Origin: a virus
Virus record (IMG/VR): IMGVR_UViG_3300025889_012341
Coordinates: 1 to 26,023 of that record
Reading direction: 5' to 3' (one strand)
DNA length: 26,023 nt
This document shows, piece after piece, positions 1 through 3,819 of this stretch (positions are counted from its first letter, which is position 1; each line of letters begins with the position of its first letter). Position numbers and translations under genes: made by a program. The notes beneath the pieces were generated by a model, which was not told where the DNA came from, ran no database searches, and was given only the letters and a program-made list of their open reading frames with translations.

Positions 1-464
1 GTGTGACAGTTCACGGTAGACCATCCCAAGAATTTTCTAGTGTTATTCAGGGATAGGGATGTCAATCCTAATGGGACCAGGTGTTCATATACCAACACCA
101 TCACATCAATCAATCTGATTCTTTTGGGAAGGGGAATCTGATAGGTGTTATACATCGCTTCAATGAATCCCCAATCAAAACTTGGATTGTAGCCCACCAC
201 ATATCCTGACACCAGTATAGTAGCTATTTGTTTGGCAGCTGTGTCCATATCCATAGCACCTGACCACCCCAATGGGGTGTATCCATTGATTTCCAAGGCC
301 TTGGGGTCTGCTGTCTCAATATGGGCAGGATGAATCAACGTGTTGAACACCTTGGACACCCCATCAGGATAGACACTGATGATAGTGATATCAATGATTT
401 CATGTTTTGTGCAATCCAGTCCTGTTGTTTCAATGTCCAGGAAATGAAGAATTGGTTTGTCCAT
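1..464 (-). CDS. DnaQ-like (DEDDh) 3'-5' exonuclease, partial
   Basis: The protein is cut at its C-terminus by the window edge; 154 residues are visible. Exo I motif DIETTG lies at residues 10-15 (D10, E12). The Exo II motif, GYNPSFD, follows at 91-97 with D97. The end has the typical run-up to Exo III (GW..VNCH, H154), whose final Asp would lie just outside. This is the DEDDh family, which includes the DNA polymerase III epsilon proofreading subunit; it removes nucleotides from 3' ends using two metal ions. It starts at ATG 464 behind an AAGGGGG ribosome-binding site. It lies downstream of the putative origin and is transcribed away from it, so a role in phage DNA replication or processing is likely. 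Whether it stands alone or is the N-terminal domain of a polymerase cannot be seen. Confidence 0.85.
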   Translation of the reverse strand, partial: MDKPILHFLDIETTGLDCTKHEIIDITIISVYPDGVSKVFNTLIHPAHIETADPKALEINGYTPLGWSGAMDMDTAAKQIATILVSGYVVGYNPSFDWGFIEAMYNTYQIPLPKRIRLIDVMVLVYEHLVPLGLTSLSLNNTRKFLGWSTVNCH

Positions 465-537
465 GTGGCCCCCTTGGTTATTTGATATGGAAAGATACCA
501 CCTGGAAAGGATTGTCATGTCTTACTAGGACATTTTC

Positions 538-578
538 TGCCACATACTGCCACATACTGCCACATACTTGCCACATAG
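538..578 (+). repeat. Left iteron array, four TGCCACATA copies
   Basis: Copies start at 538, 548, 558 and 569. The first three are identical TGCCACATAC repeats in direct tandem at 10-bp period; the fourth, TGCCACATAG, comes after one extra base. The 10-11 bp period puts all copies on one face of the helix, as expected for cooperative protein binding. A degenerate TGCCATATA occurs at 623-631. Confidence 0.85.
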
Positions 579-640
579 TTTTCTGTTGTTTGTTCCCTGT
601 GGGTGGGGATTCATATCACTTTTGCCATATATTCAATGAT

Positions 641-740
641 TTTTATAATATATATATAATAAATAAATTATAATTACAAAATATATTTTTGAGTTGTTTA
701 TGTGGCAAATATATATATAATATATATAATATATTCGATA
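641..740. other. AT-rich putative DNA unwinding element
   Basis: About 100 bp of nearly pure A/T, with alternating TATATA runs at about 650-660, 709-734 and 738-744. The main G/C cluster is a single inverted iteron at 699-707. This is the easily melted segment expected between iteron arrays. It could also supply promoter -10 elements for the exonuclease gene. Confidence 0.55.
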
Positions 741-827
741 TATAGGGAATGAAACAGGTTTTCCCTATGTGGCATGTATGTGGCATGTATGTGGCATGAT
801 GTGGCAAAATAAACAGGGTATGTGGCA
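699..827 (-). repeat. Right iteron array, inverted TATGTGGCA copies
   Basis: Copies of TATGTGGCA, the reverse complement of the left-array iteron, lie at 699-707, 766-774, 777-785 and 788-796, and again at 819-827. A one-mismatch copy (GATGTGGCA) lies at 798-806. The central copies are spaced 10-11 bp apart. The whole array points the opposite way to the left one, giving a symmetrical arrangement around the AT-rich block. Confidence 0.85.
742..768. repeat. Inverted repeat beside the right iterons
   Basis: ATAGGGAA (742-749) and TTCCCTAT (761-768) form a perfect 8-bp inverted repeat with an 11-nt spacer. The right arm overlaps the first copy of the right iteron cluster. It could be an origin hairpin or a dyad operator. 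Confidence 0.5.
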
Positions 828-834
828 AGAAGAC

Positions 835-880
835 AAAAAAAAATCTTGTGGCCCCCAACACGTAAAAGGGCCACAAGATT
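835..880 (-). terminator. Rho-independent terminator of the early operon
   Basis: On the minus strand a perfect 13-bp stem (arms 868-880 and 842-854) with a 13-nt loop is followed by a run of seven or more Ts (835-841). It begins 36 bases after the stop codon of the VirE-type helicase gene. It closes the early operon and shields the iteron region from read-through. Confidence 0.9.
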
Positions 881-915
881 CCTGGATGATATGCTATATG
901 TATTGTATCACAAAA

Positions 916-2208
916 TTAGTTTCTTGTCCACACTCTTTTGTTATCTCTTCTGACAAAAGAACACCCGTTTTCCTTGCATATCTTGGCCACCCTTCTGCTG
1001 TTGCCTGAATGTCTATGACTAACAGGAACCTGAAGATATTCCATGATTTCAGCGATTGTGGCCCCACCTTTTTGGACTAGGCAATCAAGGACCCCATAAG
1101 CCCACGGGTCTTCCACCAAGAAAGCTTCTTGGTACTTTTCCAATAGGTCTTCTTCATGTGGAAGAAGGTGCCATTCATGTCCTGTGTGATATGTGGTCAC
1201 AGCTTCAGCCCAAAGATGGTCCCTGTTCTCCTTAATCCACTGTAAATCCACTTTGTTGGGACACCAAAACACCCAAAATCTTCTTTCAGGACCATCATCC
1301 ATGATATTTCTGTCGTTACTGGTTCCATAGAAGCATGTTGTTCTCAATCTGAACACAGGGTCCTTGTCATACACAACCCGGTATCTATCTTTGTTATCAG
1401 TCAGAAAGGCCTTGATTGTCCCTGAATGTTTCCCGTGAAAATCATCCAATTCTTGAAATTCCCATATCCAAACCCCTGTTTGGTGAATCAATTCAAGGGC
1501 TGATTTGTTTCCAATGTTCAATTTGCTTCTTGAATACCATTGTTCTGTTGGAAGAAGAAACTCCACACAACGAGATTTCCCCACACCCTTGGGACCTGCA
1601 AATATAGGCATGGTGTCCATCTGACATCCAGGATTCAGAGCACGGGCCACCCAGGCAATGAACATTTTCTTTGACATCACTTCAATGATGGGCCGTGTAA
1701 AATCATCACATTCACACTTCAAGATATGTTCTGCAAAGTATTGGATTCTTGATACCCCATCCCATTCCAATCCTGACAGGTATTCCTTGATTGGGTCAAT
1801 TTGGTTCAGATATGCAACCCTGAAGACCCCATTCCTTAAGTCAGCTTCTGTGGTTTCTAGTCTGTATCTTTCTTCTAGGTCTATGGCAATCTGTGTCCAA
1901 TGATGTTTTTCCACCAATTTCCCATCCCAATATATTTTATCACTATGATAATGATAGGACATTTTTCCTGAATACTGGGAATCATTTTCCAAGACTATGG
2001 CCAAATTCTTTTTGTCTGCCCTTGGTCTAGGTGTGTTCTTCAAGTTCCCATCCTTGTCCCACACTGCCCTAGATGTTTCAAGCATATCCCACACACCAGG
2101 TTCAGCACCCACAGGGGTAGGATCTTCCTTGTCTTGGATTTCAATCTTGATTCCCTGTTCTGCTGCCACTTCACGCAATATCTTTAATCGTTCTTCATGT
2201 TTTGTCAT
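916..2208 (-). CDS. VirE-type SF3-like helicase / replication initiator
   Basis: 430 aa. The central part matches the virulence-associated E (VapE) family of phages and satellites, P-loop ATPases related to superfamily 3 helicases. Visible motifs: Walker A GPKGVGKS (205-212), Walker B VWIWEFQELDD (246-256), a sensor Asn in YGTSN (298) and the paired arginines GPERRFW (309-310). The upstream part (about 120-165) has the family's DPIKEYLSGLEWDG segment. The C-terminal 60 residues are basic and may form a winged helix. The start ATG overlaps the primase stop (ATGA, 2205-2208), so the two are translationally coupled and probably work as a primase-helicase pair. Being the last gene before the iterons, it is the best candidate for the origin-binding initiator; that part is inference. 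Confidence 0.85.
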   Translation of the reverse strand: MTKHEERLKILREVAAEQGIKIEIQDKEDPTPVGAEPGVWDMLETSRAVWDKDGNLKNTPRPRADKKNLAIVLENDSQYSGKMSYHYHSDKIYWDGKLVEKHHWTQIAIDLEERYRLETTEADLRNGVFRVAYLNQIDPIKEYLSGLEWDGVSRIQYFAEHILKCECDDFTRPIIEVMSKKMFIAWVARALNPGCQMDTMPIFAGPKGVGKSRCVEFLLPTEQWYSRSKLNIGNKSALELIHQTGVWIWEFQELDDFHGKHSGTIKAFLTDNKDRYRVVYDKDPVFRLRTTCFYGTSNDRNIMDDGPERRFWVFWCPNKVDLQWIKENRDHLWAEAVTTYHTGHEWHLLPHEEDLLEKYQEAFLVEDPWAYGVLDCLVQKGGATIAEIMEYLQVPVSHRHSGNSRRVAKICKENGCSFVRRDNKRVWTRN

Positions 2209-3086
2209 CTTCCACCCCCTAACACCAAATCTGTAAGACTACCCCACCACCCACATGAATTCTTATGATTGCAGGATGGAAACTTGTTGGAATTGGGGAA
2301 GTTGATGTCAATAGAAAAATGGACATCAGGTCTTCCACACTTGGGACAGGTTATGTGTCTTGCATTGTTCCCCAACATCTTGGCCCCTAGTCTGTGAGCA
2401 ACACCCATTCTGAAGTTGGGGTCTGATTCAGCTTGTGACACTGTGATGGGTTTTCCTGATTCAGGTGGAATGTATCTTGTAGGTTGTTGGATTGTAACAT
2501 GGGAATAGTCCAGTTTCAAGAATCTTCCTGCATGGTGAAAATCACTGTAATGGTATTCCTTGAAATTCAGGGGGTGTCCCATGTTCATGTTGCCTGCCAA
2601 TGGGTAAGCATACCGATAGTAAAGCCTAGCAACATCTTTCAGGGCCTTGGAATCAGGTTCACCCCTTCCAATTTGGCTGTCCCATAGTTCTTTGGCAGCA
2701 ATAGAAGCCCTTGGCCAATCTTCTGCTGGGATAGGTTCAGCCAATGGAAGAATAATTCTGTATTTGTTGTGTTGTGGTCTATTGCTGAAGGATGTGTGTG
2801 CAAGGACTGTCCAATCTGTCCACATTCTCCAAGTATCATAACCTGTCAAACCATCATCCATGTCATAGACAAGACATGATATTGCAACGGCTGAAGCCCC
2901 TGACCTTGTTTTGTTAGGTTGGAATGTGGTTGGGGTCCACAGGGGAAGGTCTTTCTTGTTTTGGATGGGTGTTCCTTTGGCAATGGGTGTCAGCAAAGAG
3001 TTGACAAGGGTTGCCAAGTTCACCACCCTGGACACAGGTTTGTTTTCCAAGGTGTGATTGAATGTTGATATAGCATATTTATCCAT
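2205..3086 (-). CDS. AEP-type primase (PrimPol) with zinc finger
   Basis: 293 aa. The N-terminal half has signatures of archaeo-eukaryotic primases: a metal-binding DMDD at 75-78, then AHTSFSN...KYRIILPL (97-115), and a third conserved stretch with D145, D151, R154 and Y157. The C-terminus holds a zinc-ribbon-like motif, CPKC (247-250) with C272, H274 and C278, as in primases that recognise template DNA. It would make primers for phage DNA synthesis next to the VirE-type helicase encoded just downstream. A clear AAGGAAC ribosome-binding site precedes ATG 3086. It follows rusA by 11 bp and overlaps the helicase start by 4 bp. The fold assignment rests on motifs only. Confidence 0.75.
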   Translation of the reverse strand: MDKYAISTFNHTLENKPVSRVVNLATLVNSLLTPIAKGTPIQNKKDLPLWTPTTFQPNKTRSGASAVAISCLVYDMDDGLTGYDTWRMWTDWTVLAHTSFSNRPQHNKYRIILPLAEPIPAEDWPRASIAAKELWDSQIGRGEPDSKALKDVARLYYRYAYPLAGNMNMGHPLNFKEYHYSDFHHAGRFLKLDYSHVTIQQPTRYIPPESGKPITVSQAESDPNFRMGVAHRLGAKMLGNNARHITCPKCGRPDVHFSIDINFPNSNKFPSCNHKNSCGWWGSLTDLVLGGGR

Positions 3087-3097
3087 TTTGTTGTTCC

Positions 3098-3496
3098 TTA
3101 TGTGATGATAGTGTTTCTATAGATTGAAAAGGTTGTGTGTGGTTCTTCATAGATTGAAGAATAGTAATCAGCAGCTTCCAGGACTACAACTTGATTGTCA
3201 TCCAACCAAACCCCTGATTTTGTCAGGATGTCAAATACCATCTTACACAGGTTGTCAATGTCAGGGGTTGTGGTCTTGAATGTTCTGTTTGGGTCCTTGA
3301 TTCTTTTTGGTCTTTGGTGAACAAACGTGATGGAAATCTTGACAGGGCCTTCCCAAGTCTTTTCAGCCTGAAATATGTGTGTTTTCATATATTCACGGGT
3401 CTTGGGTGGGGTATAGGTTCCATATTTTCCATGTCTTGATCTTCCTGTGGCTACTGGTTGTCCAGGAAAGAAGCCTTGAAAGATTAGTTCCCACAT
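3098..3496 (-). CDS. rusA: RusA-family Holliday junction resolvase
   Basis: 132 aa, close to the usual 120-140 of RusA proteins. The family's active-site pattern is plain: PDIDNLCK at 78-85 (D79, D81, K85), D89, and GVWLDDNQV at 95-103 with acidic D99/D100. RusA dimers cut four-way DNA junctions, and phages use it to resolve recombination intermediates and branched DNA before packaging. AAGGAAC precedes ATG 3496. The first 13 bases overlap the end of the upstream HTH gene, and the primase follows 11 bp later, so it is part of the early replication operon. Confidence 0.9.
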   Translation of the reverse strand: MWELIFQGFFPGQPVATGRSRHGKYGTYTPPKTREYMKTHIFQAEKTWEGPVKISITFVHQRPKRIKDPNRTFKTTTPDIDNLCKMVFDILTKSGVWLDDNQVVVLEAADYYSSIYEEPHTTFSIYRNTIIT

Positions 3497-3819
3497 TTTT
3501 CACGTTCCTTGATTATGATTTCTGTCCATTCCATATAAATTTCATAGAAGTTATAGGGATATAGGAATCTTATCAAATTATGAAAGAAAATAATTGTTGG
3601 ATATTGGGTCCCCTGAATCCACTTGTATATTGTTTGTTCAGAACAATTGATTTCCTGTGCTATGTGTTGTACTGTAAAACCTTTTTGTTTTATGGATTGG
3701 CCTAGAATATCACCCCAAATTTCAGGTTCAGTGATAGCAGGTCTTTCTTCCACAGGAATGGACATTCTTCCATTTTCTCTGATGTTGTCACGTTGTTTCT
3801 TTCTTTCTTCTTTTGTCAT
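3484..3819 (-). CDS. XRE/Cro-type HTH protein
   Basis: 111 aa. After a charged N-terminal arm of about 35 residues comes a lambda-repressor-like helix-turn-helix, FTVQHIAQEINCSEQTIYKWIQG, at roughly residues 48-70. The remainder is aromatic and hydrophobic (FYEIYMEW). AAGGAG precedes the ATG, which overlaps the stop of the upstream gene as ATGA (3816-3819). It resembles two other proteins here (3816-4115 and 23710-23997) in layout: a W...Q start, an HTH, then a hydrophobic tail. It probably regulates phage promoters, but I cannot say which. Confidence 0.7.
   Translation of the reverse strand: MTKEERKKQRDNIRENGRMSIPVEERPAITEPEIWGDILGQSIKQKGFTVQHIAQEINCSEQTIYKWIQGTQYPTIIFFHNLIRFLYPYNFYEIYMEWTEIIIKEREKCGN

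Follow-up and report, generated by a model that had tools for sequence, protein, structure and literature searches.

Results

In the genome of an uncultured 26-kb tailed phage we found a 290-bp non-coding stretch that is very probably a SaPI-like replication origin, recognised and opened by the self-loading VapE-type helicase of this integrase-less phage. The window, by which we mean the whole stretch of DNA analysed, is a linear IMG/VR virus contig of 26,023 bp, and all positions not given with another locus label refer to it (Table 1). The features seen directly, on which this reading is based, are the anatomy of the stretch, its conservation in related contigs, the homology of its AT-rich core and the families of the proteins encoded beside it.

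Table 1. Features in and around the proposed origin
Feature	Position	Strand	Remarks
DnaQ-like 3'-5' exonuclease, far side of origin, cut by contig end	3..482	-	PF00929, E 1.4e-14
Left iteron array, four exact TGCCACATA	538..577	+	starts 538, 548, 558, 569; spacing 10/10/11 bp
Degenerate iteron TGCCATATA	623..631	+	aligns opposite exact TGACAGAT of relatives
AT-rich core, proposed DNA unwinding element	636..745	.	homologous to L028, L029 in + orientation only
Single iteron within AT core	699..707	-	position kept in L028 and L029
TCGATATATAGGG element beside right array	735..747	+	common to L029; one difference in L028
Right iteron array	766..827	-	exact copies at 766, 777, 788, 819; near copy at 798
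Intrinsic terminator, primase-helicase operon	842..880	-	inverted repeat, T run, folding energy
VapE-like (PF05272) helicase, proposed initiator, 430 aa	916..2208	-	Pfam E 1.7e-55
C-terminal winged helix-turn-helix of helicase, proposed iteron-binding domain	919..1107	-	residues ~368-430, model
AEP-type primase with C-terminal zinc ribbon	2205..3086	-	invariant D75xD77, CNH-NSC motif
RusA Holliday-junction resolvase, same operon as helicase	3098..3496	-	PF05866, E 3.5e-22
XRE-like HTH protein, same operon	3484-3819

The gap contains four exact plus-strand copies of the 9-mer TGCCACATA and five exact inverted copies, and copies with a single mismatch start at 798 (-) and 623 (+); the rest of the 26-kb window has no exact copy. 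Nine occurrences of one 9-mer are far beyond chance, as no 9-mer exceeded four copies in 2000 dinucleotide shuffles of the 397-bp gap. The period of 10-11 bp that an earlier note on this DNA had described holds on both sides, the spacings on the right being 11, 11, 10 and 21 bp. Each detail of the note that we checked proved right, the facing of the two sets included, with one refinement: the inverted copy at 699 stands alone within the AT core, outside the right-hand array. The centre is 89% AT over 636-745, rising to 92% over 636-698 and 94% over 708-742, and an 8-bp dyad (ATAGGGAA at 742-749 and TTCCCTAT at 761-768) could be read from the sequence within 742-768. At the edge of the array, some 10 bp away from the final iteron, ends the strong terminator of the primase-helicase operon, with a 13-bp perfect inverted repeat (842-854/868-880) followed by a minus-strand T run (folding energy -26.7 kcal/mol, z -6.0). 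Matches to DnaA boxes in the gap were weak, had one mismatch and overlapped the iterons; GC skew, a check that the earlier note had asked for, was uninformative.

The operon running towards the array consists of the HTH gene, RusA, the AEP-like primase and the VapE-type helicase. A profile search of the PDB with the helicase matched a single sequence, 7pds ('Similar to D. nodosus vapE', E 5e-55), and the structural model of the helicase, of moderate confidence (mean pLDDT 70), matched the same entry (PriRep1 with dsDNA) with a Foldseek E-value of ~1e-16, so that PriRep1 was the best match by both profile and model. The C-terminus is predicted to fold as a winged helix and is a candidate DNA-binding domain, the modelled elements being helices at residues 368-380, 385-391 and 401-413 and strands at 417-421 and 424-428 (pLDDT ~79-90). 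Sequence families gave weak matches for the primase, whose AEP call rests on the conserved DxD and on the model, with the AEP domain of S-2L PrimPol as the best Foldseek match (E 4.5e-5). Judged from the grouping of the helicase with PriRep1 and from the AEP-like primase model, the window appears to carry the phage replicon of primase and helicase that had been proposed from the sequence, where the helicase was called VirE-type; VirE in this sense is a former name of the VapE (virulence-associated E) domain and does not mean Agrobacterium VirE. As had also been noted, the ORFs of the window include no polymerase-like ORF. They do include virion genes, namely TerS, TerL (terminase), a major head protein and tail genes. 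A DNA-level search with window 1-3500 and protein-level searches with the primase and terminase gave no match to annotated phages.

Searches with the helicase and primase identified related contigs whose helicases are 51-55% identical to that of the window. Of these, L028, L029 and L030-L032 keep the layout in the gap that separates the VapE-type helicase from the DnaQ-like exonuclease, with the iteron TGACAGAT. Exact copies of TGACAGAT number 10 in L028, 11 in L029 and 12 in L031, all confined to the gap and absent from the rest of these 8-13 kb loci. The conserved layout and the homologous AT core both support the SaPI-type origin arrangement put forward in the earlier note. In L028 (5004-5942) and L029 (4916-5545) helicase and origin are separated by a methyltransferase gene, which has no counterpart there in the window or L031; the two methyltransferase genes are unlike each other.

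When aligned in plus orientation, the window core scored 101 and 98 against L028 and L029, compared with 50 and 49 in reverse orientation, the latter being close to the shuffled alignments for these two contigs (mean 48-50, sd 6-6.6). Against L031 the scores were 81 forward and 70 reversed, both below the shuffle maximum of 92. On these alignments the AT core is homologous to the cores of L028 and L029, yet turned round relative to the flanking genes, because the genes of the window are on the minus strand and those of the relatives on the plus strand while the core aligns in plus orientation. The flip between lineages was seen for L028 and L029, and we infer that recombination between the facing arrays is its simplest cause. 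It is conceivable, though we regard it as doubtful, that the origin can invert and switch specificity as a module, its core flipping by way of the arrays acting as inverted repeats, and iteron and helicase changing together to give origin-specificity groups of VapE-helicase phages. Adjoining the left array, window 592-607 (TTCCCTGTGGGTGGGG) aligns with a terminator inside the origins of the relatives and is perhaps a remnant of that internal terminator after inversion.

We then scored the 500 bp after the stop codon of VapE helicase genes for an 8-mer repeated exactly in both orientations. In a first set of 27 loci (23 annotated phages or satellites with VapE-like helicases and four loci of the window's group), 14 scored at least 5, compared with 1 of 371 windows elsewhere in these loci. 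This cut-off was picked after the first set had been seen, which makes the second set, of uncultured contigs, the fairer test; here 7 of 23 loci reached it, against 0 of 321. Pooled, 21 of 50 VapE-helicase loci (the window and some relatives included) compare with 1 of 692 background windows, for which the Fisher p-value of 5e-26 overstates independence because the loci are related. The other 29 loci fell below the exact-match threshold, some of them with an array further off (L028, L029 and Pseudomonas phages). Iterons vary by lineage (GTATCCAT, GGTCACCC, TGTCAACA, GATGCAACA, GGAACAAC, CTGCAACA, CGTCCAGC and others), and helicase similarity correlates with iteron similarity (Mantel p 0.0002, and 0.008 once the obvious clades are removed). 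We asked whether iterons track the C-terminal domain more closely than the ATPase domain, and the two were not separable: the winged helix is not singled out, because iteron similarity runs parallel to both (r 0.54 for the ATPase domain and 0.48 for the C-terminal domain). No description of this layout as general for VapE-helicase phages was found in the open-licence literature.

Discussion

From these data we infer a mechanism in which the 430-aa VapE-type helicase would act as a self-loading initiator and bind the TGCCACATA iterons through its C-terminal winged helix. The two facing iteron sets would load two helicase assemblies in opposite orientation, and these would melt the AT core between the arrays, allowing bidirectional firing; the adjacent AEP-type primase would then prime, and a host polymerase would replicate the DNA.

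Other proteins might be the ones that bind the repeats. A phage transcription factor could use the array as an operator cluster controlling both the replication operon and the gene for the exonuclease, and the XRE-like HTH protein of the same operon would be a candidate for this; in addition, the iteron at 699-707 coincides in part with a promoter-like -35 box directed towards the exonuclease (708..680 minus, TTGCCA-17-TATATT). We consider this reading unlikely, as the 9-12 sites form two sets that face each other across an alignable AT core and lie beyond the operon terminator, other promoters are without iteron copies, and arrays of this kind are found after the VapE helicases of many unrelated phages. 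Autoregulation could nevertheless accompany origin function. Iteron-like arrays also occur at packaging and partition sites, and L037 has a tandem GGTGACARAT array (1314-1400) directly upstream of a terminase-small-subunit-like gene; however, in the window and its relatives the array is linked to helicase and exonuclease rather than to terminase, and no ParA/ParB-like gene was identified in the window, which makes it very improbable that some other phage protein binds the array for packaging or partition.

The least credible reading, in our view, is an attP whose arm-type sites, bound by a tyrosine integrase, would be the repeats. We explored it owing to arrays of the TGCCACATA 9-mer beside tyrosine integrases in three other loci (L017:140-214, L018:174-248 and L014:3948-3967, the L014 integrase having an Arm-DNA-bind_4 domain), and these arrays are probably arm-type att sites. 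It was dropped, since no integrase (PF00589) was found in the window, L028-L031, L033 and L034 (records incomplete), every one of these loci that spans the gap has it flanked by helicase and exonuclease, and the integrase-linked arrays of L017 and L018 are in one orientation only.

An origin served by its own helicase has close precedents. The Rep helicases of SaPIs recognise iterons directly downstream of their own gene through the C-terminal domain (PMC7581432). Like the SaPI pri-rep-ori module (PriRep1, PDB 7pds), the window has a helicase of the VapE/PriRep1 family, proposed as initiator, with an AEP-family primase beside it, a proposed iteron origin immediately after the helicase gene and, by prediction from the model, a C-terminal DNA-binding domain. 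Unlike that module, it has separate primase and helicase genes, the iteron TGCCACATA and a core inverted relative to its relatives, and it belongs to a full tailed phage. As the window encodes TerS, TerL, head and tail proteins of its own and no integrase was found, the element is not a phage satellite (a small integrated element with an integrase and without a full set of virion genes), and these data do not show it to be a SaPI. Nor does it fit a lambda-type origin, with iterons inside an O-type initiator gene, as the array is intergenic and no O-like family matched the replication proteins of the window that were tested.

The SCCmec helicase Cch2 binds, through its C-terminal domain, direct repeats downstream of its gene at a putative origin (PMC7581432), as we propose for the window, but it is of the Primase_Cterm/D5 family and its repeats are 5 nt long and in three copies. 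In phage Sfi21 a 302-bp noncoding element functions as an origin of replication and gives resistance to phage (PMC6356513); like the window's stretch it is short, noncoding and in the replication module, with an unrelated iteron. Streptococcus thermophilus phage SW6 has a primase, a helicase and, in the gap that follows the latter, a ACGGTAAC array.

To this known kind of origin the window adds the switch of iteron, the inversion of the core and the general occurrence of the layout. If our reading is true, the DNA immediately following the helicase gene will often reveal where a VapE-helicase phage has its origin, and this would hold for phages of Firmicutes, Proteobacteria, Actinobacteria and Cyanobacteria. 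Matched helicase C-termini and iterons would be ready for testing, and it could be predicted which phages compete for each other's origin, a competition suggested by origin-based resistance in S. thermophilus phages.

The same iterons also occur in other settings. Among the matches listed in a literature search for the TGCCACATA 9-mer, nothing concerned origins or att sites. Pattern matches in L006, L007, L008 and L010/L013 look like chance or coding matches, and those in L009, L012, L015 and L016 are repeats with a 12-bp period. L011, an uncultured GC-rich 34-kb phage, resembles the window in having eight exact TGCCACATA copies in both orientations (L011:4381-4698), placed between the genes for PolA and a Prim-Pol/PriCT/DUF927 protein; unlike the window, it has PolA, no AT-rich core and no detectable helicase similarity. 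An intergenic array in a Clostridia MAG (L019:6994-7042) has five copies at a 10-bp period, three exact and two with one mismatch, and no integrase was seen among the ORFs listed for this 8-kb locus. Finally, a TGACAGAT array in both orientations (L035:10024-10120) lies just upstream of the gene for a 128-aa HTH-like regulator in a phage with a D5-type helicase.
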